NCBI GenBank assembly: GCA_027596075.1
Contig: JADGJC010000035.1
Coordinates: 124,993-188,992, forward strand
DNA length: 64,000 bases
Direction of reading: 5' to 3'
Source: Rhizophlyctis rosea
Taxonomy: Eukaryota; Chytridiomycota; Chytridiomycetes; Rhizophlyctidales; Rhizophlyctidaceae
Shown here: positions 4,813 to 52,928 of the stretch, piece after piece
Numbering within the stretch: position 1 is the first letter of the stretch
How the letters are laid out: each line of letters begins with the position of its first letter
Position numbers and translations under genes: made by a program
The notes under the pieces: generated by a model
Told to the model about the DNA's origin: nothing
Database searches by the model: none
The model's input: the letters and a program-made list of their open reading frames with translations, nothing else

Positions 4813-6399
4813 TCACCAACCATTCACTCGAACAATCCACGCCATCAATGGCCCATCAAGTCTGCAGAACTCATCCAAGAAAGCTCCACCGACCATGGCT
4901 TCAAACAGGTCAGCATTAAGCTTCTCGACGGTCTTTCTCCATTGCGGTGAGTTTGGCACCAACCGACTCGGGACAAAGCCCCGGCGTCCCTCATTTGGAA
5001 GTCTGAGGTGGACACTGAGAACGGAAAATGACCGATTGGTCACCCTGCTCCGTTCCTGGTCCAGGTCCGCTGCTGTCACCGCTCGATGGAAGAAAGTCCG
5101 CATCAGGGCTGCATCAAGTACCGCGTCACCAATGAACTCGAGTCGATCTCCATCGTCCTCTCGGTTCAGAGCCCTCCGCAAATACATGCGATCGCCCCAG
5201 TTCCGACCCGTACCGGTAACCAGTTGGTTAGACAGTGGCGGGATCATCGGTCTGGTTTGTTGAGGGTGGTTTCGCCTTGGGATACTTGGTGGCAAAATTC
5301 CCATGATGCCAAGTGCACCGCGGGCGTAGTCCATGTTGACTTCCAATCCAAGGAACCCCAAAAGCACCAGAAGTTGCTTTCCCTCTGCCAAATGAGGGCG
5401 TGGGGCATCAAAGAGGAGTCGGCTCCTCCTTGGATCATCAGTCGGCTGCACCATGTAAAGGCGCAACCGCCTCGCCTCCGCATTGAGCCTTGCCTTGAGC
5501 TTGAGCGCATCGATCTTGTTCGAGAGTTGTCTGGCTCGATCGGCGGGAAATCGCTCGAACAGATTGACGGCGGCGCCCCACTTGTGGATCCCCCGACCGA
5601 GGTGCACAAACTTGGCTGATCCGGGCGAATCTGGTCGCCGAATCAAGTTTGGCAGCCTCAGGGGGTCATTTCCAAGCCCAGCCAATGCTGACAACGACAA
5701 CCCCACTTGGAGGTGTGTTGCCAGCTTCTGAGCATAAATGAGGGCCCGCACGGTAACCATCTTGTCCAGAGCAGCCCCGACCTGCGCGAGAATGGTGTTG
5801 TTAGCCAAACCCAGTGTTTTGACCACGGAGCCGGACCAGCCAGCACCGATGGTCGCAACTCGAGTAGCGGACCAGCCACCTTGAAATACACTCATGGAAT
5901 GTACTTCGGCTGAAATCGTCAGGCCTTGCGAACCTGGCGTGTTGCCCACGACGAGAAGACACGGGTTGGACTTCACCATTTGGCCGACTCCGTTGCTTGG
6001 GTTGGTAACCCGAAGCACAAGTCCTTGAAGATTCCCCACTTGCCCCTGTATGGTAAGCTGCTGTTCGGTAGCTGGAAGAAGTGGGTCGCGCATAGTGAAT
6101 CCTTCTGGAATCGAGGAATTGACCTCCAGAAGGACCAGGCACACTTCTCCCGGCTGCGGCGCAGATGGCTTCATACCAATGCCGAGGTACCCAAAAAGGG
6201 TAGCGGTACTGGCAATGTTTGTGGCAAGCAGGTTGTCCGAAGGAACGGAGAAGGCCGGCACGCATCCTTGCGGAACCGTTGAGAGCAAGTTTGCGTCACC
6301 TATGGGCAGAAGCAGCCCATAGGTGAACGCAGCCCCGCCTTGTGGTGCGAAAGGAAGAATCTTGAGCCGCAACGCCGGAGTAGCGTGCGGTTGCTGCAT
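4813..6399 (-). CDS. RNase III-domain protein with unrecognised N-terminal half
   Basis: Intronless 528-residue protein. Residues from about 400 to the end form an RNase III catalytic domain. The signature DRLEFIGDAVLD carries the acidic pair of motif 1, and ADLFEAMVGGAFLDEF carries the second Asp/Glu pair. All four metal-binding acidic residues are present, so double-stranded RNA cleavage is plausible. No double-stranded RNA-binding domain follows, and no PAZ or helicase precedes, so this is not a Dicer. Residues about 1-220 are hydrophobic, Gly/Ser/Val-rich and probably mostly beta; I do not recognise them. Residues 260-300 are basic and helical (ARQLSNKIDALKLKARLNAE). Lack of introns in an intron-rich region hints at later arrival or retroposition. 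Mitochondrial ribosomal RNase III-like proteins are an alternative, but they lack such an N-terminus. Confidence 0.72.
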   Translation of the reverse strand: MQQPHATPALRLKILPFAPQGGAAFTYGLLLPIGDANLLSTVPQGCVPAFSVPSDNLLATNIASTATLFGYLGIGMKPSAPQPGEVCLVLLEVNSSIPEGFTMRDPLLPATEQQLTIQGQVGNLQGLVLRVTNPSNGVGQMVKSNPCLLVVGNTPGSQGLTISAEVHSMSVFQGGWSATRVATIGAGWSGSVVKTLGLANNTILAQVGAALDKMVTVRALIYAQKLATHLQVGLSLSALAGLGNDPLRLPNLIRRPDSPGSAKFVHLGRGIHKWGAAVNLFERFPADRARQLSNKIDALKLKARLNAEARRLRLYMVQPTDDPRRSRLLFDAPRPHLAEGKQLLVLLGFLGLEVNMDYARGALGIMGILPPSIPRRNHPQQTRPMIPPLSNQLVTGTGRNWGDRMYLRRALNREDDGDRLEFIGDAVLDAALMRTFFHRAVTAADLDQERSRVTNRSFSVLSVHLRLPNEGRRGFVPSRLVPNSPQWRKTVEKLNADLFEAMVGGAFLDEFCRLDGPLMAWIVRVNGW

Positions 6400-7829
6400 G
6401 GCTAAGTCGCGAATGCTGAGTAAGAGAAGAAAGAAGGTTTGTGTGAGTGGTCGAAGAACTCCTGAATGGATTGCATGTCCCCCTCAAAAAGTGACGTACT
6501 ATCCCAACCACCAGAACATAGCAGTCATTCTATCCGGTGAAGGACATAACCCAATCATAACCACCACGAGTATCCAAAAACATCGCAGTCAACTCCAGTG
6601 TACCCCTCAACTCCCAGTATCCCACAATTGACACCCACAAGTGAATGCGCGTGGACTTACCAGGCTTTCTTGGTAGAGATCTACATGTGCGGTGCAAGTC
6701 GAAAAGAAATGAGAGATCAGCACTGGCGCATATTATGTCCAAGTTAGAGCGAGTATCGTACCTTAAAACTTTGAGTCGGTGCTTGATAACTTGGAACCAG
6801 AGGCTAAAGAGCACAGTGGTTTTTGAAAACCTAGACGCGATAGATCAATAAACGTATACGCACCTTTTAGCCGGCATTGCCTGGCTCTTCGTTTTCTGAA
6901 GGTTGTCGTTGTCTGTAAATGCGTGAAAACGAGAGTGAGCGATATGACCACATACTACTAGTGCAATCGCAGTCGACATCTTACCGTATGATCTAATGAG
7001 GTCGTTTGTGGGAAAACAAGAATGTCAATGATGCTGCACGGGAGGAAGATATCTTCCCGGCAGTCCAACTTTCGGACGAAAGTGAAAGAATCACGTGAGT
7101 TGTTCCGGACTTTTTTTCCAAAAAACAGTGTGAGATGTTTGTAGCATGCCATAGCACTATTAGCCATAATAGCATAGCATTATTAGCCATAATAGCAAGC
7201 GAGTGTGTAATGATTTGCAAATCGGCGGAATTTTGACCAGTTCCGCCACCCGCGCCGCTATGGACGCGTTCTATTGATAGGCACATTGACTTCTCTCGAA
7301 ACCCGCTGGCACGGAACATGACAACACATCCAGGTGACACACTCCGGAAATACTATGGAACTCCGGATAGGGTTTTGGGTTTTCCGGCATGGGAGATCGG
7401 TCAATGCGAAATGGGGGATTGCCCTGACGGCATACCAGTAGTTTGTCACCACGATGAAACCCTATGGGATGAATCAGAGCGCTATGTCATATTCCCGGAT
7501 TTAGGCGGGTGTCTGTAGTTTGAGCTTTGGGTTATGGGGTTTTAGGACGGACTCCGGATGGGGTTACGCACATCATCAAACTCCCGCCTTCCGCCAAAAG
7601 TGATAGTATAAACATTGGGCTGTGAAGAAGGCGGCAGTGTGGGGGTTTTGTCTTCTTGCTCATTATACTTTTCTCCTTGGCTGTGTTTTCAGGGTCGTGT
7701 TTCCAAAGTATATATAAAACAAAATCCACCGCAACGGTCGCGCTCTTCTTTCTTTCCTCTTGTAAACGCACCTCGTAAATCACATAGAGATACATAGTCG
7801 ACAAAACTACATAGACGTATCCGTCAACG
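6400..7829. other. Intergenic region, no convincing gene
   Basis: Only short open stretches in all frames. A spliceable minus-strand mini-frame around 6900-6700 (MPAKRFSKTTVLFSLWFQ after joining at 6872) is possible but unsupported. A 22-bp-period direct repeat (TATTAGCCATAATAGCA at 7159-7175 and 7181-7197) is present. The right end carries the promoter of the next gene. Confidence 0.5.
7708..7719 (+). promoter_or_regulatory. TATA box of the 7830 gene
   Basis: TATATATAAA lies about 115 bp before the ATG at 7830. It would place the transcription start near 7740, leaving a 5' leader of about 90 nt. Confidence 0.5.
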
Positions 7830-9065
7830 ATGCCCTCAACAACACCACCTCCCGAATCCCGTCGCGCGTCTTCCACAACCACTGCACCTCAAGAACCACT
7901 TCATACCCGCCGCACATCCGCCAACACAACACTACCCCATGCAACAACCCTCCCACGCCCAACATACATTTCACATTCCCGTCGCACCTCCCAAGTACAA
8001 GCACCTCTCCGCAACACCGTTCCCCGCTCTGGATCTACCCACTCCCTCTCCCCGCCAGCACCACAACCCTGTATTGACGCATATGAGACGTGGATGGATC
8101 TCCTCGTATCTCTGCTTCAAGACGGCATGATGCGGAAGTCCCAACGCGACACCAAACCGAAAACCAATAAACATGCGGCGGCAAAGGTGGCGGATGGGAT
8201 CGTGTTTGGGGTCAGGAAGGGTGTTGGGAAGGTTGCTGGGGCCGTGGAGAGTGTCGTTGGTGCTGTTGTCGGTGGTGGTGGGGAGAGCGGTAATAAGATT
8301 TCACCTGTTTCTGGTGGTGGTGCAGCGGGTGGTGGGGCTGGGGGTACCGGAAATGAGGCAACGGCGACGAGCACAACAGGTGGGAGGGTGGGTCCTTTTG
8401 CCTGGTTTTTGACAATGACGGAGACTGGGGTTGCGCAGGTTGAGGTGGAAGCTAAGATTGGCGGGGAAGACTATGTAGTAGTTCCGGTTGCAGAAGGAGA
8501 GAAAAGTGCAGCGACAGATGGAGATACAGATACACAAGAACACACAGCAAATACTTCACAGGACAATCTTGTGACCGCCTCGGCACCACCAGACTCTCAC
8601 ATAGCAACAGCCGCAGAATTCACTTCAGCACCCTCTTACCTCCAACTCCCCCATTCCCGCACCCCTTCCCAAACACATACCGCAGTCCTCTCGGACACAC
8701 TAGCCAACCACACAAAAACCCTCTCAACAGCAATCCTCACCTCCCTAACAACCGACATCCTCCTCCTCCACACCGCAATTCTCATTTCCCCTCCACCCTC
8801 AACCACTTCCTCTCTCCAACAACCTCCCTCCTACCCCCTAACATCAACCCACCGCATCGTAACCGGAACATCAACCTACACCTCATCCCCACTCTCCAAG
8901 CAGGAGATCAAGAATAAAGTCTGGTGGAAGCTGAGGGGTTGGAATGGACGCGTGGCGGATAAGGTTTTGTTTGGTGTTGAGAAGAAGGAGGGTGAGGGGG
9001 CGTTTGTGACGCAGGAGGGGGAGGCCTTGAGGAGGAGGTTGAGGGAGTTGGCTAGAGAGGTTTGA
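7830..9065 (+). CDS. Hypothetical low-complexity protein
   Basis: Single-exon frame of 411 residues that I cannot assign. Residues 1-80 are Ser/Thr/Pro/Arg-rich and probably disordered. Residues 83-100 (YETWMDLLVSLLQDGMMRK) and 355-411 (KVWWKLRGWNGRVADKVLF, then a charged helix) look folded. Between them are a Gly/Val stretch (GVGKVAGAVESVVGAVVGGG) and Thr/Ser-rich spacers. There is no signal peptide or clear membrane span. Support as a gene comes from the length of the frame, the TATA box upstream and the charged, structured C-terminus. Its base composition switches between C/A-rich and G/T-rich blocks of about 300 bp. Confidence 0.6.
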   Translation: MPSTTPPPESRRASSTTTAPQEPLHTRRTSANTTLPHATTLPRPTYISHSRRTSQVQAPLRNTVPRSGSTHSLSPPAPQPCIDAYETWMDLLVSLLQDGMMRKSQRDTKPKTNKHAAAKVADGIVFGVRKGVGKVAGAVESVVGAVVGGGGESGNKISPVSGGGAAGGGAGGTGNEATATSTTGGRVGPFAWFLTMTETGVAQVEVEAKIGGEDYVVVPVAEGEKSAATDGDTDTQEHTANTSQDNLVTASAPPDSHIATAAEFTSAPSYLQLPHSRTPSQTHTAVLSDTLANHTKTLSTAILTSLTTDILLLHTAILISPPPSTTSSLQQPPSYPLTSTHRIVTGTSTYTSSPLSKQEIKNKVWWKLRGWNGRVADKVLFGVEKKEGEGAFVTQEGEALRRRLRELAREV

Positions 9066-23421: not shown

Positions 23422-23813
23422 TCTGTCTATCAAGGAAACGATCTATTTGCATATCCGACTGGAGCCGGTCTGGCTTGGGTTAAGTGAAGCCACATCAAGC
23501 CTGACGATCATGACGGAATCAACTCCCATCCCCAACACTTTCTTTCCACACTCCACTTGACATTGAAATGTCAAGGAACAACAAAGTTTGTTATCGTTTC
23601 ATCTCTTTCTTTATAGACGCATGCGATCTTCCCACCAATAGTCGGAACCCAAAAAGAAGAGATGGCGTTGATAAGTAAGTCTTGCCGTTGCGTGCCTCGA
23701 TCCTCGAACTCGAACTGACCGACCTCGTTCCATACCTACCAGTATCTAAAAAACCAAAAATCATAGCAAGTATGCGTATCGCTCGTCTGGCCGCGAGAGG
23801 GTTCGAGTGTTTG

Positions 23814-23919
23814 CCCTATCCCTTTCGGGATAGCGGGGTAGAGGCGTCCACCAGACCGAGGTGAGATGACGCGCACTTTTTGTGCGTTGCTGACCACCAC
23901 GCGGTGGGTTGCCTCTATC
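23814..23919 (+). ncRNA. Structured-RNA family, copy 1
   Basis: Outer stem GGTAGAGGC/GCCTCTATC (one G.U), P2 GGTG/CACC (a compensatory change from GATG/CATC in other copies), inner stem CGCAC/GTGCG with a T5 loop. An upstream hairpin CTATCC/GGGATAG lies at 23816-23833. Main hairpin 23837-23919. Confidence 0.5.
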
Positions 23920-24057
23920 CACGCAAACGTCCCTCGGCACCATCGGCACCAACCACCGGCACCAACCACCGGCAACAACAACCGGCAACAGCATCACCGA
24001 AGGACTTCAAGACTTCGCAACTATCAGCCCAGTATTCCACACATGGTAGCTGGTAGT

Positions 24058-24142
24058 GGATGACGGTGGCCACCTGACCGAGATGAGTGACACGTACTTC
24101 GGTGCGTTGCTGATCATCGCGCGGGAGGTATTGCCGTCACCC
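24058..24142 (+). ncRNA. Structured-RNA family, copy 2
   Basis: Outer arms GGATGACGG and CCGTCACC; P2 GATGA/TCATC; inner stem CGTAC-TTCG-GTGCG with one T.G pair and a UUCG tetraloop. Confidence 0.48.
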
Positions 24143-24456
24143 TTGCGAAATGTCCTCGAAACCGCCTTTCACCTACATCCTCGCAAACAAAGCAAACCCC
24201 AACGCCACCTCAGTGCTCGCTATTCTTTGTTCAAGCTTTCCCGCTCCCACACCAACCGCTACATCTTCGCCACTTTGGACCATACCGAACTGCACCAACT
24301 TCACTACCCGCGCGAACTCCAACGGACACCAAGACTGCACTTCTTCTTCTGGACGCTGCCCCGCATCCTCACCCACATCCACTTTGCCAAAGCCAAGGCC
24401 TACCAACATCAAGGTCTCGCTCCACTGACGTCAGGAAGCCCTGCTTGTTGTTGGTG

Positions 24457-24550
24457 GTGGACGGGGGCGGGGCCACTGGACGGAGATGAGATGACACACA
24501 CTTCGGTGTGTTGCTGATCATCACCCCGGAGGTCCCAATCCCGTCCCCAC
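24457..24550 (+). ncRNA. Structured-RNA family, copy 3
   Basis: Outer arms GTGGACGGG and CCCGTCCCCAC; P2 GATGA/TCATC; inner stem ACACAC-TTCG-GTGTGT. The spacer before it (TTGTTGTTGGTGGTGG) is shared with copy 13. Confidence 0.48.
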
Positions 24551-24770
24551 AGAACATCCTTCAGCGGGACCAGCGTAAGGTACGCCTTACCCCAATGTCA
24601 ATGCAACGACCGCCAGCTCACCTTTCCCTTTCATCCCAGCAAACCCGGCACCGCGCGTAGCAGTTCAACAATTACCACCGTTCCACCCCGCGGGTTCATC
24701 TGCCTACGTTTTTGCCATTAATACCACGGCCCTCTCTATACATCCTGCAAAATCAGCAATAAGGTTTCGC

Positions 24771-24886
24771 CTGCCCTCACTTCGCAATCGGTAGTGGTAG
24801 GGGCAGGGCCACTGGACCGAGATGAGATGACGCACACTCTTCTGAGTGTGCTGCTGATCATCGCGCCGGAGGCCCCAGCTCCCGCC
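24771..24886 (+). ncRNA. Structured-RNA family, copy 4
   Basis: Inner stem GCACACTC/GAGTGTGC (8 bp), P2 GATGA/TCATC, outer arms from GGTAGGGGCAGGGCC to GGCCCCAGCTCCCGCC. The upstream hairpin CTGCC/GGTAG (24771-24794) is preceded by GGTTTCGC, as in copies 10 and 11. Main hairpin 24796-24886. Confidence 0.5.
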
Positions 24887-24988
24887 ATCGGCGAACGTCC
24901 CTCATCAACACACGACACGCCCACTTCACCTCCCGCAATCCTCTCGGTGAAACAAGGACCACGGTTTCTGCTGCTTCCAAGATGACAC

Positions 24989-25071
24989 GTAGGGGCCACC
25001 AGACCGAGATGTGATGACGCGCACACCTTTCGGGGTGTGCGTTGCTGACCATCGCGCTGGAGGTCCCTGCT
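24989..25071 (+). ncRNA. Structured-RNA family, copy 5
   Basis: Inner stem CGCACACC/GGTGTGCG; P2 GATG/CATC; outer arms GTAGGGGCC/GGTCCCTGC. Confidence 0.48.
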
Positions 25072-25118
25072 CCCTCCGACGTCAGCAACTGAAACGTTGT
25101 GTTTCTTCGGCTTCAAGT

Positions 25119-25200
25119 GCAGGGGCCACCAGACCGGGGTGAGATGACGCGTACACCTTTCGGGGTGTGCGTTGCTGATCATCACGCTGGAGGCCCCTGC
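25119..25200 (+). ncRNA. Structured-RNA family, copy 6
   Basis: Outer stem GCAGGGGCC/GGCCCCTGC closes perfectly; inner stem CGTACACC/GGTGTGCG has one T.G pair. Confidence 0.48.
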
Positions 25201-25257
25201 TCCCTTCCGACTTCAACAACAGCAATACGAGCTTTCTCCTGCTTCTCTCGGCGACAA

Positions 25258-25338
25258 GTACAGGGGCCACCAGACCGAGATGAGATGACGCGTACACCTT
25301 TTGGTGCGTTGCTGATCATCACGCTGGAAGCTCCTGCT
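25258..25338 (+). ncRNA. Structured-RNA family, copy 7
   Basis: Same layout with a shortened inner stem (ACC-TTTT-GGT plus CG/CG) and arms ACAGGGGCC/AGCTCCTGC. Confidence 0.45.
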
Positions 25339-25380
25339 CTCTCACCGCTTCAGGAATGGACCACGATTCAAGGGCATGAA

Positions 25381-25463
25381 TGCGGGGCCACCGGACCGAG
25401 ATGAGATGACGCGCATACTCTTTAGGTGTGCGTTGCTGATCATTACGCCGGGAAGTCTTTGCT
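25381..25463 (+). ncRNA. Structured-RNA family, copy 8
   Basis: Inner stem CGCATAC/GTGTGCG with one T.G pair; P2 GATGA/TCATT. The outer arms are the most degraded of cluster 1. Confidence 0.42.
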
Positions 25464-25745
25464 GCGTCCATGTTGAGGAAGGGACAAGTGTTGACGTCCA
25501 TATGAGCTGAGTATATCAGTCTTGTTATCAATGTAACGAGTCCAGAAAATTTATATGACTCGAGTATATTGTGTCAAGAAGTAAATTCCGAGTTCTAGGC
25601 TAAGGGCTACCGGGTTCGAATCCCAACTAGGACTATTATGTTAGCTTCTGATGAGAGATCGATTCTGAATCGCCAAAGGTTTTAGATTGCGTTTTAGCGG
25701 TTCGGCACTTTATTATGTTTTATCAATAAGAACGTCCACGACCCA
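25464..25745. other. Spacer with tRNA-like T arm
   Basis: Between the RNA cluster and the end of MED6. At 25590-25636 a GGGTTCGAATCCC T arm is flanked by AGTTCTAG/CTAGGACT, which could pair as an acceptor stem, but D and anticodon arms are missing. Probably a tRNA remnant. Confidence 0.35.
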
Positions 25746-31311: not shown

Positions 31312-33568
31312 TCATTGGAGCAAGCACTTCTCCGTCCTGTCTTGACGCTTCCGAACCCGACGCGCCGCCTTCAAGTCATCCAAAGCTTGAATCGTGAGAA
31401 AGTGTTCCGCTCCCAACACCCGCTTACACCCTTCCGCAACTTCCCCAAACAGCTCTTCCCCCTTCCCAAAATTTCCCAATACCATGTTGACGGTTCCTAA
31501 ACAGTTGGCGGTAAGCAAGGTGTCCGGATCATCCCTCCCCAATGCCCGTCTCTGCCGATTCAAACAATCCACAAAGGTCCGTTCCGCCTTCTCATTTTTC
31601 CCCTGGTACATGTACGCCCTCCCCAATTCCTAGAGACATTTCAACGTTCCCCTATGATTCTCACCAAGCACTCGCTGCCTCCTCTGGAAACAATCGAGAA
31701 ACACCGGTTCCGCCTTCCCATACATCTCGGCTTCCGAGTAAAGTTATCCCAAGCTGTACAGACTGTTCAACACGTCCGGATGATCCTTTCCAAGTACCCG
31801 TTGGCCCCTCTGTAAGCTTTCGAGGATGTATTGTTCTGACTTCTCGTGATGTCCGTGAGTGCCGTACAGCACACCGATGTTGGTCAGGCATATCAGCGTT
31901 GTCTCATGATCGTCCCCAAGTGCCCGCCTCATCCTTTCCAAACAAGCCATGTACAATCCTTCCGCCTTATCGAAATCCTCTTGGCTCTGGTATACTCCGG
32001 CCAGGTTCATGAGAGTCAGAAGTGTGTCCGGATGATCTTCCCCAAGCCCTCGCCTCCTTCGCTCTAAACAGTCCTTATAGAGATCTTCCGCCTTCTCATA
32101 CTCCTCATTATCAGCATATGCGGCAGCCAAGTTATGCATCGAAGTCACTGTCGAAGGGTGATCGTCTCCCCGGAGCAACCTATTCCCTTCCAATTCATCC
32201 GCCTCAAGGAGAAGCGTCCCTTTGTTCAAGCGACTGGAGGGCATCCCAGCTCGGCCGTTACGGGAATTTCGCATCCCTGTATCATCTTCCCCGACCAACT
32301 CCACGTACAGCTCTTCTGCCATCCGGTGTTTCCCCTGTTTGGTATACAGTTCTGCCAACTCTTGCGCCACGACTCCATAAGCCGGATGACCCCACCGATA
32401 CATCTGCTCCGCCCTCTCCAGTGCATCAACATAGAACTCTTCGGCCTTATCGTACCTCCCTTGATCATCATACAACTTTGCTAAATCGTGGATGGATTCC
32501 AACGTTTCGTCATCACCCTCCCCAAACGCCAACCTCCTCCTCTCCAAACACTCCTGCAACATGAAGTCCGCCTTGTGGTACTCCCCTCGCCTACGGTACG
32601 ACAACCCTAATTCGCTAAGAGTTCTCAGCGTGTCCCGATGGTCCGGCCCAAGCACTCGTCTTTGCATCTCCAAGCAACTGACAAACAATGGTTCCGCTTC
32701 CTCCGGCATGCCCTGGTCTTGATACAACTTTGCAAGACTATACTGACACCGCCCCAACTCCGTTTCATCCCCTCCCTCAGCCACAACACGCATATGGGAC
32801 TCGAGTCCCCCGACCATCCATTGGAACAGAAGCGCCAGCACCATCCGATCAAGTTTAGCAAACCCAACCGTCCCGCACCGCCCTCCTGATCTCTGCCAAA
32901 TCTTCCGCCACAGTCGCTTCACTATTCTCCGATTTGACGGACGCGATCGTCTCATAAAACACGCCCGGATCAAACTGCAGCTCCCGGCGAAAAGCGGATA
33001 TCTGGTTTGGAGGAAGGGCGATATCGAATTGGGATTTGGTATCGGCGCATGCGAAGAGTTCGTACACGCACCAGGCGCGGGTGAGCGTGATTGGGGCATC
33101 CCACGGCGTGAGAATCATCAGGACGTGGCCTACGGCCGAGATGGTGTTGGTGAAGGTGGTGCGCAACCATTTGGCTTCGATTTTTTGTCTGTTGTGTTGA
33201 GGGAGGGAGAAGAGGTCGAACCAGAGGATGGGGTCAGGAGCGTCTTGCTGGTCGCGGAAGAAGGTGGTGATGGCGTCCACTACGTCGAGAAAGGTGTATT
33301 GCCAGGTATGGCTGATGAACCAGTTGGCTTTGGAGGTGGTTGATGGCGAGTCGATGGCTAGATGGTCGCAAAGTGACTTATCGGTGGCTGTCAAAGGCTT
33401 GACGAACTTTTCGCAGACCTCTCCCGTCGTCTGGTTGGGGAAGACGTCACGGCCGCCGTATTGGTTTATAAAGGTGTCGAAGTACGATAAGCGGACGCCC
33501 GAAAGACGTGGTGGCTCAGCTTGAGTGGTCTCAATGACCGGATTGACGTGTGTGTTAGGGCCTGGCAT
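31312..33568 (-). pseudogene. TIR-like domain + kinesin-light-chain TPR protein, broken
   Basis: Residues 1-237 (ATG 33568-33566) form a TIR-like domain: ANWFISHTWQYTFLDVVDAI, ILWFDLFSLPQHN, HVLMILTPWDAPITL and TRAWCVYELF; the last corresponds to the Trp-Cys-x-x-Glu region of TIR NADases. About ten TPRs of the KLC/NPHP3 type follow (AEPLFVSCLEMQRRVLGPDH and similar). The TIR frame stops at about 32855, while the TPR frame enters one base out of step near 32887 (RRAVRD then TVGFAKLDRM). In the TPRs, TAA (about 31750) and TAG (about 31632) interrupt otherwise continuous repeats. Frameshift plus two nonsense codons indicate a recent pseudogene. An intact copy would resemble an innate-immunity or non-self-recognition receptor. 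Confidence 0.75.
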
Positions 33569-34335: not shown

Positions 34336-34833
34336 GAATAAATCCCCCGTGCACTGTTGTGACCGAAACTTCAAAACCCGGCAAAGCGGATGATGACGAT
34401 CATGTCTATTGCCTGTTCTTTCCGTTGAGGCACAGCTAGTCCACCATGGAACCAGAATGATGAAATCCTTTCCACCTGTTCCCAATCTCAGATTGTTGTC
34501 AAGACATAAAGCGGTGAATTGTTTCTGGGCCATTCGTGCGACAGTAATGGAAGTGTACAGGAATTACAGCAACATGGCATAACAAGACCGGAAATAGATT
34601 GCGGTTCCATACAAATTAAATACAGAATGTCAAAAGCACAGTACAATATTCGAAACGTTTCCAATGAAAAATACATGGAGCTCAAAATCATATGCACCGC
34701 AACGTCCTCCTCCTACCAGCACACAGTTAAAGAACAAGTTAGTTCCTTTCAAACGACGTCATCATCACGAAGCAAACAAAATACTCAGCTTCACAATGCA
34801 TGAACCACAGCTCATCTCGACCAGAGACTTGAC
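34336..34833. other. Intergenic
   Basis: A/T-richer sequence with no feature seen. Confidence 0.4.
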
Positions 34834-34911
34834 AGCAAGGACTTCCAGGCGCGATGATCGACAACGTACACAAGGTACGTTCCCTCTCACCTCGGTCCCG
34901 GTAGCCCTGCA
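34834..34911 (-). ncRNA. Structured-RNA family, copy 9
   Basis: Inner stem AACGTAC/GTACGTT (7 bp); P2 GGTGA/TCATC; outer stem GCAGGG/CCTTGC with G.U. Confidence 0.48.
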
Positions 34912-35128
34912 CTCGTTCATGGCCCTCGCACCATGATAAACCTTGCTGTCCAAACTTGTGGAGACGATGAGAACATTGATGGGGCTTCTTGTTGTCTTTG
35001 AGAGGGATAATGCGGGATAAGAGGAAGTTTGTAGTGATTGATTTGAGAGAAGGTGGTAGGTGGCGGTGGGAGGTGCTCAGAGACTTTGCTGGCCTTAGCG
35101 GTTGGTGCTGGAAGGTCCGCAAACGACA

Positions 35129-35243
35129 GGAGCAGGAGCCTCCGAGCGCGATGAGCGACGACGACACATAAAGTGTCGTCCCCTCTCACCTCGGTCCGGT
35201 GGCCCTGCCCCCATCACTGCCATTTTGTTGCAGGCAGGCGAAA
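35129..35243 (-). ncRNA. Structured-RNA family, copy 10
   Basis: Read on the minus strand: outer stem GGGGCAGG/CCTGCTCC (one G.U), P2 GGTGAG/CTCATC, inner stem GACGACAC/GTGTCGTC (8 bp). The upstream hairpin CTGCC/GGCAG (35237-35217) is preceded by GGTTTCGC. Main hairpin 35129-35211. Confidence 0.52.
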
Positions 35244-35335
35244 CCTTGGTTGTGCACTTGTCCGGGATGGGAAGGAGGTTTTGGTGGATGTTGCTTTGGT
35301 GTCCGTGTTAATGCTGACGGTTCGCGAACGACGGG

Positions 35336-35446
35336 AGCAGGAGCCTCCGGCGCGATGAGCGACGACGCACATAAAGTGTGTCCCCTCTCATCACGGTCCA
35401 GTGACCCTGCCCACGTCACTGCCGTATTACTGCGGGCAGGCGAAAC
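35336..35446 (-). ncRNA. Structured-RNA family, copy 11
   Basis: P2 GATGAG/CTCATC (Watson-Crick variant of copy 10), inner stem GACACAC/GTGCGTC with one mismatch, upstream hairpin CTGCC/GGCAG (35441-35421) preceded by GGTTTCGC. Main hairpin 35336-35414. Confidence 0.5.
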
Positions 35447-35770
35447 CTTGATGACCTATCACGGAAGATAGAAGGCTCTTGTGTCGTGGTAGAGACTTGT
35501 TGCGAATGGAGAGGCGGCGAGGAAGGGGGAGAGGATGGGGAGACCGTCGAGGGATATGGTCCGACGCAGGGCGGCATGGAAAGTTGATGGCACAGGCAAC
35601 GTGGGTGGTTGGTGGGTTGGGATTCCGGGGGAGGTTGGTGGAAGTTGCCGAGCGAACAGACGCATAGTGCGGAAGGTGGCATCTGCTGGAGTAAGTTAAT
35701 GAATGGTTGTCGCGAAAGCTTTGAACTTGGTGATAGACGTACCTTATGTGGCCAATTCAAAGTTTCCCCC
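35447..35770. other. Spacer inside RNA cluster 2
   Basis: No feature found. Frames here are unrelated to known proteins. Confidence 0.35.
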
Positions 35771-35884
35771 GGACAGAAGCAGAAGCCTCCGCGCGATGAG
35801 CTACGACGTACCGAAGTACGTCCCATCTCACCTCGGTCAGTGGCCCCGCTCCTGTCCCCCAACAACAACCGCAGTCGTCTGCGG
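35771..35884 (-). ncRNA. Structured-RNA family, copy 12
   Basis: Outer stem GGACAGGAGC/GCTTCTGTCC (10 bp, one G.U), P2 GGTGAG/CTCATC, inner stem GACGTAC-TTCG-GTACGTC. The upstream hairpin CCGCAG/CTGCGG lies at 35884-35869. Main hairpin 35771-35857. Confidence 0.55.
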
Positions 35885-35929
35885 TCGTGCTGGTGGGAGT
35901 TCTTGTAGGTGGGGGTAGACGTTTCGCAT

Positions 35930-36044
35930 GGATAGAAGGAGGGGCCTCCGCGCGATGAGCCACGACGCACCGGAATGCGTCCCGTCTCACCTCGGTCAGT
36001 GGCCCCACTTCCATCCACCACCAACAACCGACAGTCGTCTGCGG
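35930..36044 (-). ncRNA. Structured-RNA family, copy 13
   Basis: Outer stem GGATGGAAG/CTTCTATCC (one G.U) plus GGGGCC/GGCCCC; P2 GGTGAG/CTCATC; inner stem GACGCA/TGCGTC. The upstream hairpin CCGCAG/CTGTCGG has one bulge. Main hairpin 35930-36016. Confidence 0.55.
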
Positions 36045-36212
36045 TATTGGTGGGGCGAAGTCTTGGTGTCTTGAAGTCGGCTTGAGCAGAATGTGGGTGC
36101 CGGTCAGGTTATGGAGTTCGAAGAATCTTGCGACGTGTCGAACTTTGTTGAAGGGTGTGGGTTGCGGGTGTGGTGCAGGTGTAGTTACGGCTGCTCGAAG
36201 GATAGCTCGCGA

Positions 36213-36298
36213 GGGTAACGGCAAAACCTCCGGCGCAATGATCGACAACGCACAAAGGTGCGTTCCCTCTCACCACGGTCCAGTGGTCGCCGTCACCC
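36213..36298 (-). ncRNA. Structured-RNA family, copy 14
   Basis: Outer stem GGGTGACGGC/GCCGTTACCC (10 bp, one G.U), inner stem AACGCAC/GTGCGTT, P2 GGTGA/TCATT. Flanking GATAGC/GCTATC could extend the pairing. Confidence 0.53.
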
Positions 36299-36401
36299 GC
36301 TATCGGTATCCAACGTGAAATGTCGGTACCGATAGAAGCGAGCTCTTGAAGGTGTTGTTGCAGTTACCGTATGTTGTTGGTGCCAGCTGGGACGTTTGCG
36401 T

Positions 36402-36524
36402 GGGTAAGGGCAAACCACCGGCGCGATGAACGACGATGCACCGAAGTGCATCCCCTTCCACCTCGGTCCAGTGGATGCCCTTACCCGCTGCCTCAGATTG
36501 GCACCGGAGTGCCAAAAGCGGCAG
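36402..36524 (-). ncRNA. Structured-RNA family, copy 15
   Basis: Outer stem GGGTAAGGGC/GCCCTTACCC (10 bp, perfect), P2 GGTGGA/TTCATC (co-varied with GGTGAG/CTCATC), inner stem GATGCAC-TTCG-GTGCATC. The upstream CTGCC/GGCAG stem encloses GGCACTCCGGTGCC (36524-36488). Main hairpin 36402-36486. Confidence 0.57.
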
Positions 36525-37655
36525 GGCAAACACTTGAGTTCCCTCTTGAGCTGGAGTGGCAGGTGGGAAGCCGCTTGTTCGAGTCTTGAGTTGTTGTGAA
36601 GGGTGTTGGCCATGTGCGGGATCCTGTCAAAGCAAGAAAGATTAGACGAATGGTTACAGTGTTTCGCCACCAGCAGTCAGCACACCATTTTGTTTCCCAC
36701 TGAAGGCATATCTATTAGTGGCACGTATGCTATGGGGGAGACTTGAGGGTGGCATGGTTGCATACCAGATTGACGAATGGCGGTGTGGGAAACTGGGAAT
36801 ATGTTTGGGAGGGAAAGAGAGCCTAGACTCGAGTCGAGTCTGTGACCCTGGGTCGTTGCCGATCCCTGAGGCTTGTGGGAGGCTTGAAGACTTCCAACCA
36901 ATGAATCGATGTCAATCAGCCGTGCCACGAACTGCATGCGCCATCATGGCACAGTATGGCTTGGAATTTGCGATCGCATCGCCGATAAATATGTCCCTCG
37001 CCACTGGTACATCCAATCGAATCCCAAAAATCGTGCAGGACGGTCCCGCCTTCGCCTCCCGCACCGAATGCCTGAAAATGGGTAATAGTACTCACTTATA
37101 AGCCCTCAATATGCATGACAACAGCAGAGTGAGACAGATCGGTGGGCGCGAAAGTACAGCCACTTGCCGCTGTCCCTGGGTGGAAGCGAAGCAAAACCCT
37201 TTCGCAACCTTGAACCCTTGCAAGAGAGAAATAGACCCGCCAAAAGTCATATTCTTTGATGTAGTCTGTCTTGTATGAACAGACTTCAGCTTTGATTCAT
37301 TGTCGAACATGTCATCATCAGGTCATGTCAGCTTTGAATCTGATGTCAAAATGTAAACCTTCCTTCCGTTTGCGAAGGACATCTGAGCAAACATGAAGTG
37401 GCGTCAGAAGACATGAATAACTGAGAGCTGCCGCATTCAGCAGTAACACAATGGTACAGCCCTGTCAAACCCTGGACAATGAGCTTAAATCTTGACGACG
37501 GTGCAAGAAACCCCAACAGCTTATTTCTCGTGCGACAAAGACTGTGGATGTAACAGTAGCCCGAAACTGGGAATCGTCAATTCTGTCAAATATATAAGAT
37601 CTGCAGTGTGCTGTGCAAAATGTGTCTGTCAAGTCCTTGGACCCCTCGTGTAAAC
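36525..37655. other. Intergenic, with TATA box of next gene
   Basis: No gene is supported in this 1.1-kb stretch. TATATAAG at 37588-37595 is the likely TATA element of the gene starting at 37656. Confidence 0.45.
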
Positions 37656-38872
37656 ATGTTGCGCGTAAACCCCGACGCGTCTTATGGCGGCGACGTCATC
37701 GTTGAAGGCCCGTCAAAACGCCTCGTTCTCACAAAGATTCCGAAACGTATCGACGGAAAACTGTTGGTCGGCTACAAAAGCGTCAAACTCGTTGAACTAT
37801 TCGTGAGCCCTGACTACGCGAGAGCGTTTAAATCGGACCGGGTTACGATGACTAATCGTAAGGGGCAGACGGAGTTCTCGTTGGAGATTGTTTTTGATGA
37901 TGGGGATTTGGGGGATTTGGTCTTTGGGGAGGAGTTTTGGAAGGGAGTGGAGGCGTTGAAGGGTGTCGATGCGGTTTTGGAGATCGTGGAGGGAGGGAGT
38001 GAAGAAAGGGAAGAGGGGTGGGAGTTTGACATGTTCCCGGACACCGTGCTGGCGCCTTCAATGATCGGGAAGAAAGCAAAGAAGAAGGGTTAGTTCTCAT
38101 TGCGCATCATGGTCTTGTATGATTTCCTCAGGCTCCCGCTCCTCAGAACATAATCTTGCCATTGCGGATGGCAGTCCGCGGCAAATCAAGTTCGAACCTC
38201 CAATCTCCAAAGCCGGTCATCGCCTCATTGAGAGGCTCCGGAAGGAGTACCATTTGGAGGGAGGATGGACGCGCACGAGGGCAGCGTTCATACTTTCACA
38301 CCGTCGGGACGACGAGAAAGTGACGAGCGCGCTTGACGCTTTGCACGAAGAGTTGGAAAATTGGCCCGCCACGACATCAGAGGTGCGCATGGCTTGATTT
38401 TGTTGCATCGTGGGGAACCGTGCCAATATCCATTCATTTAGCCGTTCGAACTTATCCGTGTGACCTTCCCGAGTCGGAACGACCGCCTACCGAGCGGACA
38501 CCTTGGTGAAGAAGGGAAGGAGGAGGAAGTTGGGGATGAGGAAGTTGGGACGCAGCTGACGGGAGAGGGTGGGGAAGGTTATGAGGGTTTGGATGGTGGG
38601 GCCGATGGAAAGACCGATGATGGGGCGGGCGAAGTTGATTCGGGGCAGTAAGTTATGAGAAGGGTGCGTCGATGAGGTGGATGCGAAACTAATCTATGAC
38701 TTGCTCCAGGATTGATGGCGCCAACGGCAGCGGCGAGGCGTCCCTTCCTCCCTCCTCGTTGCCCACGGAGAAAGGCAAAAGCAAACGCTCCATCAGCGAT
38801 GATGCCGAAGAGCCCACGGCGAAACGAAGGGCTACAGGAGGGGGGAGCGGGGAAGGAGTTGGGAGAGAATGA
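37656..38872 (+). CDS. Orphan-family protein, intact member
   Basis: Four exons; intact paralogue of the broken copy at 22.4-23.4 kb. Exon 1 gives MLRVNPDASYGGDVIVEGPS, LLVGYKSVKLVELFVSPDY and FDDGDLGDLVFGEEFWKG, a beta-rich domain. Exon 2 gives EPPISKAGHRLIERLRKEYH and FILSHRRDDEKVTSALDALH. Exon 3 gives PFELIRVTFPSRNDRLPSG and an acidic Gly-rich stretch. Exon 4 gives KGKSKRSISDDAEEPTAKRR, a bipartite nuclear-signal-like motif, TGA at 38870-38872. The start at 37656 is preferred over an in-frame ATG at 37608 because TATATAAG (37588) would place transcription start near 37620. The function is unknown; the conserved SHRRDD and FGE blocks may matter. Confidence 0.68.
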
Positions 38873-39600: not shown

Positions 39601-40341
39601 ATGTCTCAGGCACAGCATGCCCCCACACCGTCCTACTACATCCGGCGCCTCATCACCCTCACAAAAACCCGCCCCTCCGGTCTGAAGCCCTCCTCATTCG
39701 GATACCAACACAACGGGCTCAAGACAGTCGCTACCAACTGTAGTACTATAGCTTCAAAGTGGGTACAGAGACACTGCGAACGCACATCTCCCAGCGGGAC
39801 GGCAGGCTGGAAAGTCAGTATGATGGGTATGGACGTCGAGTTCAGCAAGTCCACCGGCCGCGCCAAAGCTCTCCTCCTCGCCATCCCATCTGGCCATACA
39901 CTGGTATACCACTCCCCAAACGAAGTATACCCCAACGCCATCCGCCGCCTCCTCGCAACACCGAAAGTCGTCAAGATTGGAAACGAAATCGCATGCGATG
40001 CCCAAAAACTCCGACAAGTTGGCATGACGGAAATCAACGGCATCCTAGACATATGGACCCTCGTGCAACTTCACGAAGAAGATAAAGGTCATAATGTACC
40101 TGCCGACAATATTGGTTTGGAGTTGATGGCCAAGCGGTATCTTGGATTTCGTATCAAGGACGGCTTCAGCGGCAACTGGGGCCCGGACGACGCTCTCTCG
40201 GATTCGGCGATACAGTACGCGGCGCTTGACGCGTTTGCGAGTTTGGAGGTGTTTCGTTTCTTGCATAACGGACTTTCGGCCGCCGCGCAACGCACTTACA
40301 AGCAGATGGCGAGGACGCAGATCGCGGCTGCGCGTCGATGA
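39601..40341 (+). CDS. WRN/RNase D-type 3'-5' exonuclease domain protein
   Basis: Single-exon protein of 246 residues with a complete DnaQ-like (DEDDy) exonuclease core. Motif I is MMGMDVEFSK (Asp, Glu), motif II VKIGNEIACDAQKL (Asp), and motif III DSAIQYAALDAFASLEVF (Tyr and Asp). Motif III Tyr-x3-Asp places it in the DEDDy group with WRN exonuclease and RNase D. No helicase or HRDC domain is attached. It probably trims DNA or RNA 3' ends; the substrate cannot be told from sequence. No targeting signal is evident. The start codon lies in an A/C-rich context (ACACAATG). Confidence 0.85.
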   Translation: MSQAQHAPTPSYYIRRLITLTKTRPSGLKPSSFGYQHNGLKTVATNCSTIASKWVQRHCERTSPSGTAGWKVSMMGMDVEFSKSTGRAKALLLAIPSGHTLVYHSPNEVYPNAIRRLLATPKVVKIGNEIACDAQKLRQVGMTEINGILDIWTLVQLHEEDKGHNVPADNIGLELMAKRYLGFRIKDGFSGNWGPDDALSDSAIQYAALDAFASLEVFRFLHNGLSAAAQRTYKQMARTQIAAARR

Positions 40342-41366: not shown

Positions 41367-43133
41367 ATGCCCAATAGAATCGAATTGACACTCGACACCA
41401 ACCGCACCGTTCGCAAAATCCTGACATCTTCCAAGCCATTTAGCACGCGGAATGAATTGGCGACGTCTGCGGCTCAGAAGTTGAACATCAAGAAGGCCAA
41501 AGCGGTGAAGATTTATTGTGCGGAAGATGGGAAGGAGATTGTGACGGATGAGGAGTGTGTGGATGTCTTGGCGCAAGATTGGTTAGTAGGATGAATATGA
41601 AATTTGTTGGGAGTGATTCAAGTTAACATGTGATTCAATAGCTCGCTAATCATATCAATATGCGACAATGTTCCCGTCATTTCCAAACCACGACCTGTCC
41701 TCCAGCCGAGTAGGTGGCTCTTCTCTTCATTTGGGCTTCCTTTTTGTTTGCATCGCCAGCTATCTTAAACCGCCCAAACACAGCAACAGCTACAGTCCGT
41801 GTCCTAGCCAATAAAGCCTTCGTCGAATCGGCCGCAATAACTCAATTACACACCACAGCCTCCCTACCCTCCATGCACATGGCTGTCGGCATGCCCGACT
41901 TGCACCCAGGCGCAACCCATCCCGTTGGTTGCACATTCGTCACGGATTCGATCGTCTATCCAGCCTTGATTGGTGGCGACATTGGGTGTGGAATGTCTCT
42001 GTTTCGTCTGAATACGGTGGATGCAGCAGCAGTGGAGGGAAAGAATCGAACTGAACGGATTGCTGGTCGACTCGTGGGGTTGGAGGGACCTTGGGGTACT
42101 GAGGAGGATCGGAGAGATATATTAAGAGAGGCGGGCTTGGAAGGCAAAGTTGGGGAAGAATGGAATGAGGCTTTGGGTACTATTGGAGGTGGAAACCATT
42201 TTGCGGAGTTGCAGGTTGTGGAGGAGGTTGTGGATGAGGAGGAGGCTGGAAGGCTGGGGATTTTGGCGGAGTCGGCGTATTTGCTTGGTAAGTTCGTACC
42301 ATTGTTTTGACATATCATCATTGTCGGTACTGATGCTTTGGTTATAGTCCACAGCGGCTCCAGAGGACTAGGTCAATCAATCCTCTCATCTCACGTATCG
42401 GAACACTCAACACAAGGTCTCGCTACGGACTCCCCAGCATTTACAGCTTACCTCGCCACTCACGACGCTGCATGCGAGTGGGCAGTACTGAACCGAGATC
42501 TTATCGCGCGACGCATCCTCGACACCCTCATACCTGACTCTGGGGGCGACCCTCGGAGAGCTACGAAGTTGATTGACATTTGGCACAATAATGTGGAGAA
42601 GAAGAATTTTGCTGATGGGAAGGAGCGGTGGGTACATAGAAAGGGAGCAGCGCCTAGTGATCGAGGGGCGGTTGTGATTCCTGGATCGAGAGGGGCGTGT
42701 TCATATGTAGTGCTTCCCTATGGTGATCAAGAGGCTAATGGTGAGTGAGCCCAAACTGCCTCTATCTGGAATGCCCTCCAGCCTCCGCTTCATCCCGATT
42801 GCAAATCTCACTCCAAATCCCCCTCCTACCAAACCAGCCTTCTCCCTAGCCCACGGCGCCGGGCGCAAACTCTCCCGCTCAAAAGCCCAAACCCTCATCG
42901 CTTCCAAACACCATTCCTCCACCCACTCATCATCTTACAATCATCTTCGGAAAACTGCACTGGGCAGCACGGTTGTTTGCGACGATAAGCAGCTGCTTTT
43001 GGAGGAGCATCCCGATGCGTATAAGGATATCAGTGACGTTGTGGCGGATTTGGAGGGTCTTGCGAGGGTTGTTGCGGTTTTGAGACCGGTTGTTACGTAT
43101 AAGATGAGGGATGAGGGTCCAAGGATGGGTTGA
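41367..43133 (+). CDS. RtcB-type RNA ligase with ubiquitin-like N-terminal domain
   Basis: Predicted 3'-phosphate RNA ligase of the RtcB superfamily, closest to the shorter bacterial RctB2/release-factor-H-linked type. Exons 41367-41581, 41642-41709, 41760-42287, 42348-42740 and 42838-43133. Residues 1-75 (IELTLDTNRTVRKILTSS ... LIISICDN) look like a beta-grasp/CIDE-like domain. Catalytic blocks: VGMPDLHPGATHPVG, IGGDIGCGMSLF (metal-binding Asp, Cys), GTIGGGNHFAEL (His), VHSGSRGLG (His), RKGAAPSDRGAVVIPGSRG and SLAHGAGRKLSRSKA with the guanylated His. All manganese ligands and the nucleophile are present. Five exons rule out bacterial contamination. Confidence 0.85.
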
Positions 43134-52856: not shown

Positions 52857-52928
52857 GGCCTGATGGTCTAGTAGTATGATTCTCGCTTAGGGTGCGAGAG
52901 GTCCCGGGTTCAATTCCCGGTCAGGCCC
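52857..52928 (+). tRNA. tRNA-Pro (AGG)
   Basis: Full cloverleaf. Acceptor GGCCTGA/TCAGGCC pairs at 7 of 7. Anticodon arm TCTCGC-TTAGGGT-GCGAGA has anticodon AGG after T33. T arm CCGGG-TTCAATT-CCCGG. Discriminator C. No intron and no encoded CCA. Confidence 0.95.

Follow-up and report, generated by a model that had tools for sequence, protein, structure and literature searches.

Two arrays of one folded RNA unit face each other in the window, by which we mean the whole 64-kb stretch of DNA that was analysed, with ∼9.4 kb between them. Array 1 consists of eight units (p1–p8) on the plus strand at 23807–25468. Array 2 consists of seven units on the minus strand at 34831–36533, which in the sense of transcription run c15, c14, c13, c12, c11, c10, c9. 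The sequence-only reading of this DNA had placed copies 9–15 on the minus strand, and all seven were found there. A covariance model, built from eight of the 15 units with a structure set by hand, gave 24 matches at E ≤ 10 in a search of the 64 kb. The 15 units score 52.5–88.2 bits (E ≤ 3e-10); the remaining nine matches are opposite-strand echoes of the same places with no more than 26.1 bits.

The predicted unit is a three-way junction closed by stem H1, with a side hairpin (H2) and a long arm (H3), the hairpin that the sequence-only reading had described. The arm runs through H3a (the outer stem of that reading), H3b (CYRG/CYRG), an AC bulge, H3c (CG/CG), H3d (its P2), an apical internal loop and the distal stem H3e (its inner stem). 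The AC bulge is invariant and H3d is a near-constant 6-bp helix, GRUGAG/NUCAUC; the distal stem and the side hairpin are free in sequence. In a 16-row alignment, made of the 15 units and one dispersed copy (S1, see below), the C-G pair beside the AC bulge is kept in 15 rows and swapped to G-C in p3. H3b is one pair shorter on both sides in c12 and c13, and longer in c9. H1 reads GUUUGC/GCAAAC in p1 and c15, GCUCGC/GCGAGC in c14 and UUCGC/GCGAA in c13 and p2. Unconstrained lowest-energy folds contain the three-way junction in 12 of the 16 units, convincingly in 11, a count made without a shuffled control; the evidence for H1 is the strand-swap test given below, not this count. Among the convincing folds H2 is 20–38 nt long. 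The junction of p7 is doubtful, as its side hairpin looks accidental; p3, p5 and p6 fold without a junction and p8 takes a different branched fold.

The 11 window units measured with H1 and H2 are 120–143 nt long. In array 2 (minus strand) these are c15 at 36394–36533, a three-way junction with the long arm at 36402–36486, c14 at 36204–36345 (arm 36214–36296), c13 at 35919–36061 (35932–36014), c12 at 35762–35902 (35772–35855), c11 at 35319–35447 (35331–35415), c10 at 35114–35245 (35126–35214) and c9 at 34831–34950 (34831–34913). In array 1 (plus strand) they are p1 at 23807–23928 (arm 23836–23921), p2 at 24012–24149 (24058–24143), p3 at 24413–24555 (24461–24545), whose lowest-energy fold has no closing stem and whose ends were set by eye, and p4 at 24764–24896 (24797–24885). 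The long arms of the last four units follow on the same strand at 24984–25076 (p5), 25114–25206 (p6), 25255–25343 (p7) and 25376–25468 (p8). Those of p5 and p6 are each one extended hairpin, without a side hairpin in p5, and those of p7 and p8 fold no better than shuffled sequences (z of +0.2 and +1.7, respectively).

Read in the sense direction, the linkers between units have 41% C and 13–15% G in each array (538 and 442 nt, H1 and H2 flanks excluded), even though the arrays are on opposite strands, while the arms have 32–36% G; this is the composition expected of linkers kept free of pairing. In 14 of the 16 units CAAG occurs no more than 75 nt upstream of the core (about 0.24 expected per unit), and RTCY lies on the 3′ side in eight of the 16, where simple composition predicts about five. 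A candidate shared word of 10 nt, AGCTGAGTAT, is present 3′ of each array, at 25505–25514 (plus strand) and 34781–34790 (minus strand).

Evidence for the fold comes from compensatory change. In the 16-row alignment, which was fitted to the model and whose rows are related, half of them having built that model, 87.7% of the 503 paired-position cells pair. Random re-pairing, named in the sequence-only reading as the permutation to set against the structure, falls short: both partners change in 20 of the 32 pairs (shuffles, 10.2 ± 1.9) and such changes occupy 47 cells (shuffles, 16.2 ± 3.1), values that none of the 500 shuffles attains. The covariation score is 0.350 versus 0.217 ± 0.013, again with none of 500 shuffles as high, and further pair types number 45 versus 38.0, a value that two of 500 shuffles reach; in all, the covariation beats every one of the 500 shuffles on four of five measures. 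Sliding the partner strand by 1–3 columns leaves 3–9 pairs changed on both sides, below the true 20 in every version. When 15 units were aligned independently with MAFFT and a fold was predicted from the result, the same arm emerged; both partners change somewhere in 9 of 23 pairs, and the covariation term is small (−2.08 of −23.51 kcal/mol).

Two tests did without an alignment. When the H3a strands of the 16 units are swapped, own strands pair at a mean of −15.6 kcal/mol versus −11.0 for the strands of other units, and 0 of 20 000 permutations are as good; the own strand ranks first in three of the 16 units only, because the strands of related units pair well too. For H1 the corresponding values in 11 units are −9.9 and −6.8 (1 of 20 000 permutations), and 7 of 20 000 permutations are as good with all 16 units, although the strand-picking rule overlooked some or all of H1 in p1, c13 and c10, units that were nevertheless kept. 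The strand is indicated by 60 G.U against 12 A.C at paired positions, which makes the sense strand the one drawn in the sequence-only reading; the excess is inflated, as the rows were fitted with a model that itself prefers G.U. The fold z-score averages −3.15 for the sense strand and −1.66 for the antisense strand, against 0.16 ± 1.12 in 60 control windows, none of which falls below −4; single units range from −7.0 (c14) to +1.7 (p8). Thus the tests support the earlier proposal that a structured RNA forms a second, oppositely oriented cluster that carries compensatory changes. With 15 paralogues, one genome holds enough change for a test of the fold without relatives.

At the level of single stems the earlier description was largely accurate. 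The inner stems that it listed are present; the one missing from its list, that of copy 11, is GACACAC/GTGCGTC and includes a single A.C mismatch. All four outer stems were likewise confirmed, three of them with a G.U pair. P2 does change from GGTGAG/CTCATC to GGTGGA/TTCATC in copy 15, and its 3′ strand is also altered in copy 9 (ATCATC) and copy 14 (ATCATT), where the last pair of the helix is G.A. C(UUCG)G caps exist, in two of the seven inner hairpins (copies 12 and 15), so that ‘several’ was a slight overstatement. Our analysis extends this description in three ways: the hairpin is one arm of a predicted junction in most units, several units are positional homologues and one internal loop is specific to each array.

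The window is part of contig C279 of a 44.1-Mb genome with 634 contigs. This is probably the genome of a fungus: its polymerase genes are interrupted, and an RNA polymerase I exon is closest to entry 7aoc, from fission yeast; a polymerase III exon is closest to 7a6h, from human, and the assembly contains no match to a 28S pattern. Outside the arrays, one further unit was found in this genome. This copy, S1, lies on another contig (C212) and scores 80 bits with the covariance model; it was reached by blast with array 1 and by three patterns, and blast with array 2 does not reach it. Pattern hits at 12 loci of the same genome were scored with the model, and S1 alone of them scored; the loosest pattern recovers every known unit except p2 and p3 (14 of 16), and distant copies may therefore escape. 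The closing stem of S1 is still paired in its lowest-energy fold, which suggests that a single unit is able to stand alone. Since its outer parts are nearest those of p2 (identity 0.74), of all units its nearest relative, and its loop is of the array 1 type, S1 most likely left array 1 after the two loop types had diverged. The region around S1 (minus strand, about 6600–8700 of the stretch examined, L020) has intron-like and C-rich stretches and contains CCGTGAAAGCCGG twice, as read by eye.

No family of Rfam 15 matched the arrays at its gathering score, a tRNA at 52857–52928 being the sole match in the window, and no Rfam family matched in 10 kb around S1. Below threshold, the best match to the arrays was mir-654, with 26.8 bits against a cut-off of 63.5. 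Several classes were considered and rejected. The kink-turn formed by the C and D boxes of a box C/D snoRNA includes a 3-nt bulge; the apical loop holds GAUGA/CUGA in array 1 and S1 but has no adjacent bulge, array 2 has ANGGR/YGUNG, and the sR families reach 11–16 bits against cut-offs of 37–60. Box H/ACA snoRNAs have a variable target pocket and, directly 3′ of the hairpin, an ACA box; by eye the 3′ flanks share no ACA, and the internal loops are conserved, not variable. No ribozyme family was matched even at E 10, which speaks against a self-cleaving ribozyme of an Rfam class. A protein-coding repeat was rejected because each sense frame has 8–22 stops per array and unit lengths differ by 1-nt steps; the longest open stretch has 230 codons, in array 2, and seven ORFs in the arrays have no Pfam family at E 0.1.

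Searches beyond this genome gave no relatives. Scans by pattern picked out 20 + 7 stretches in viral contigs and 14 in bacterial and archaeal genomes; these score 20.8 bits at most with the model, versus 52–88 for the 16 units, and are taken as chance or unrelated. A distant blastn search with 35120–36500 (six of the seven array 2 units) against plasmids found none. Among the matches listed in the literature, with subscription journals thinly covered, no title or abstract opening describes such an RNA. The structured RNA family is genuine, without an Rfam match and so far known from one genome. Seven IMG/VR viral contigs (L093–L099) carry the core pattern at 14.8–17.5 bits; their identical 45-nt spacing indicates that these stretches are probably relatives of each other, forming one viral family of its own.

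The core of the unit and its outer parts (H1, H2 and H3a) have contradictory trees. Outer parts of several units pair by position: c15 with p1, c14 with p2, and c11 together with c10 with p4; c13 is nearest c12, c10 is nearest c11, and neither c13 nor c12 has a clear counterpart in array 1, p3 included. The outer part of c9 is nearest p8 by identity, tied with p5 and p2. Outer identity is the same within arrays (0.625) as between them (0.624), whereas core identity is 0.842 within and 0.749 between. Of the 5040 possible orders of the array 2 units, 26 give a collinear match as good as the observed one for the outer parts, and 4443 do so for the core. The pairs c10/c11 and c12/c13 and the group p5–p7 look like tandem duplicates.

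The core tree (48 columns, with one of 13 inner branches starred) separates array 1 plus S1 from array 2 at 97/97, and rejects p1+c15 (p-AU 7e-5), p2+c14+S1 (0.01), p4+c10+c11 (0.012) and p8+c9 (0.049). With the outer tree, which used 104 of 182 columns, a clade of array 1 and S1 is rejected (p-AU 7e-7); the tree contains p1+c15 (94/97), p4+c10+c11 (85/84) and p2+c14+S1 (75/58), two of these three positional groups lying below 90% support. In this tree p8 joins p7 (97/92) and not c9, which has a long branch, though p8+c9 is unrejected (0.125). The groups put to the AU test were named after the matrix had been seen, and the p values are somewhat flattering.

Most of the array signal in the core resides in the apical internal loop. 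Its 12 columns have an identity of 0.89 within and 0.46 between arrays, and of the 6435 ways of labelling the units the true set alone gives such a difference; for positional homologues and other cross pairs alike the value is 0.46. The distal stem inside the loop has 0.74 within and 0.69 between (158/6435 label sets). H3d, with 0.84 and 0.79 (23/6435), and H3b–c, with 0.86 and 0.83 (201/6435), carry a weaker array signal outside the loop as well. In H3a identity is 0.46 within and 0.45 between, and positional pairs (0.57) exceed other cross pairs (0.43; 52/5000); for H3b–c these values are 0.88 and 0.83 (364/5000). Segments and loop columns were chosen after the alignment had been seen, and the seven positional pairs include p3 with c13 and c12. 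The loop reads AUGAC/UGCUG in array 1 and ANGGR/YGUN′G in array 2, where N and N′ covary (G-C, U-A, C-G). In four columns, all of them in the loop, the two arrays have no letter in common. A loop that brackets a variable stem has thus been exchanged in all units of an array. In array 1 (e.g. 24470–24535) the GAUGA/CUGA of the apical loop looks like the non-canonical stack found in a box C/D kink-turn, minus the bulge, a likeness absent from array 2.

The structure, its strand, the positional homology of several units and the array-specific loop are supported by these tests. To explain them together we propose, with a probability of about one half, that the arrays encode two paralogous non-coding transcripts, strings of binding modules whose loop sets array-specific recognition of a partner. 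We infer that each array is transcribed as a single RNA, that this RNA has a partner acting in trans and that it serves as a scaffold. Each array would be one transcription unit, array 1 running rightward from ∼23.8 kb and array 2 leftward from ∼36.5 kb, and its RNA would consist of folded modules strung on unstructured C-rich linkers. The bulge region would be a putative binding site common to all modules, and the apical loop would decide which trans-acting partner, probably a protein, binds. Both arrays would derive from the duplication of one ordered array, after which all units of at least one array would have changed the apical loop in step with the partner of that array, the outer stems meanwhile drifting in sequence with their pairing kept. 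Seven or eight similar sites per RNA could make it a multivalent scaffold or sponge, as the repeated, similar cores suggest.

Among the alternatives, intra-array gene conversion or unequal crossing-over may have homogenised the cores, in which case the loop difference would be neutral and would reflect no array-specific partner. The greater likeness of cores within arrays (0.842 versus 0.749), with outer parts equal (0.625 and 0.624), fits such a process, and so do the apparent tandem duplicates c10/c11, c12/c13 and p5–p7. The loop strands, however, flank a distal stem that is nearly as varied within arrays (0.74) as between them (0.69), with compensatory changes, and the loop is no more similar in positional homologues than in the remaining cross pairs (0.46 each). 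Because conversion should take the stem with it and selection by a partner on the loop should not, we prefer co-change with a partner and regard homogenisation as unlikely; old conversion followed by drift of the distal stem could mimic the loop pattern.

Another reading, which we consider somewhat improbable, is a polycistronic precursor cut into single-unit RNAs of 120–143 nt, in the manner of clustered snoRNA genes, with the CAAG and perhaps the RTCY flanks marking cut or mature ends. CAAG before the core in 14 of 16 units, the lone S1 with its own closing stem and the free C-rich linkers all suit cutting. A precedent is offered by Neurospora crassa, whose C/D snoRNA clusters yield polycistronic transcripts (PMC2780460). 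Against it, RTCY in eight of 16 units is to be compared with about five by composition, snoRNA boxes or another class signature are absent, p3, p5, p6 and p8 are not three-way junctions (p7 being doubtful), and cutting alone leaves the array-specific loop unexplained. That the hairpins supply double-stranded RNA for small-RNA production, as in microRNA-like clusters, seems very unlikely: they are long, imperfect and clustered, and array 1 arms give three sub-threshold matches to the precursor of mir-654 (best 26.8 bits, E 0.0029, cut-off 63.5), but conservation lies in bulges and internal loops of both strands instead of in one mature strand, and the stems, the would-be source of small RNAs, are free to change. 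Least credible of all are palindromes acting at the DNA level, such as mobile-element hairpins or protein-binding sites without RNA function. A dispersed copy and mutually inverted arrays would agree with these, yet they do not predict the large excess of G.U over A.C or the strand-biased linkers, and only one copy was found outside the arrays in 44 Mb.

If array-specific partner recognition is the right explanation, the locus is a natural experiment in the concerted change of all binding sites of one RNA, and the modules offer a defined bait for a partner search. Loop and outer stems have opposed histories, and these single out the nucleotides that may govern which partner is chosen. More tentatively, and with some doubt on our part, the arrays could represent a new RNA–protein class in which a shared recognition bulge is combined with two orthogonal loop codes, concerted change in each array and separate multivalent particles.

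Repeated structured modules in RNA are already a known kind, and the surprising part here is the loop pattern. Fungal snoRNA clusters likewise have several non-coding units in the same direction with linkers between them; the present units lack conserved C/D or H/ACA boxes and any recognised guide stretch, are mostly three-way junctions and stand in facing arrays with partial position-wise homology. The Xist A-repeat and the roX RNAs are scaffolds with repeat modules thought to bind several protein copies. They too hold several similar structured modules in one RNA, whereas the RNA described here is probably fungal, has larger modules and comes as two paralogous arrays with opposed loop types. 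GOLLD and ROOL are ornate large RNAs of bacteria, known from comparative sequence and of unclear role; they resemble the arrays as large structured non-coding RNAs, but the arrays match no Rfam family and, to our knowledge, GOLLD and ROOL are not tandem modules of this kind. Telomerase RNA has a three-way junction in fungi as well; it is a single gene, unlike the 15 + 1 units here, for which no Rfam family was matched.

The upstream regions of the two arrays share no similarity above shuffles (144 of 200 as good), and the best downstream match between the arrays is C-rich and lies far from them (2 of 200 shuffles as good). A 177-codon open frame at 37560–38090 (plus strand), with no Pfam family, points away from array 2, so that array 2 may have a promoter region of its own. 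On the minus strand a stretch resembling a 3′ splice site, ctttcttgctttgacag, read by eye, ends at 36624; the RNA of array 2 may therefore be spliced. Located 3′ of array 1, a minihelix at 25591–25634 (plus strand) contains GGGTTCGAATCCC, a perfect match to the tRNA B box, flanked by agttctag and ctaggact. ARAGORN finds no tRNA at 25591–25634, a blast search of the genome places the stretch nowhere else, and the number of B-box words in the window does not clearly exceed chance. Elsewhere in the window, an ORF at 4813–6399 (minus strand) has a ribonuclease III domain, its protein matching nothing but itself in the protein collection at E 1e-20, one at 31744–33099 (minus strand) has TPR repeats, one at 39601–40341 (plus strand) has a 3′–5′ exonuclease domain, and an exon-like ORF at 41714–42307 (plus strand) has two stretches matching the RtcB RNA ligase family.
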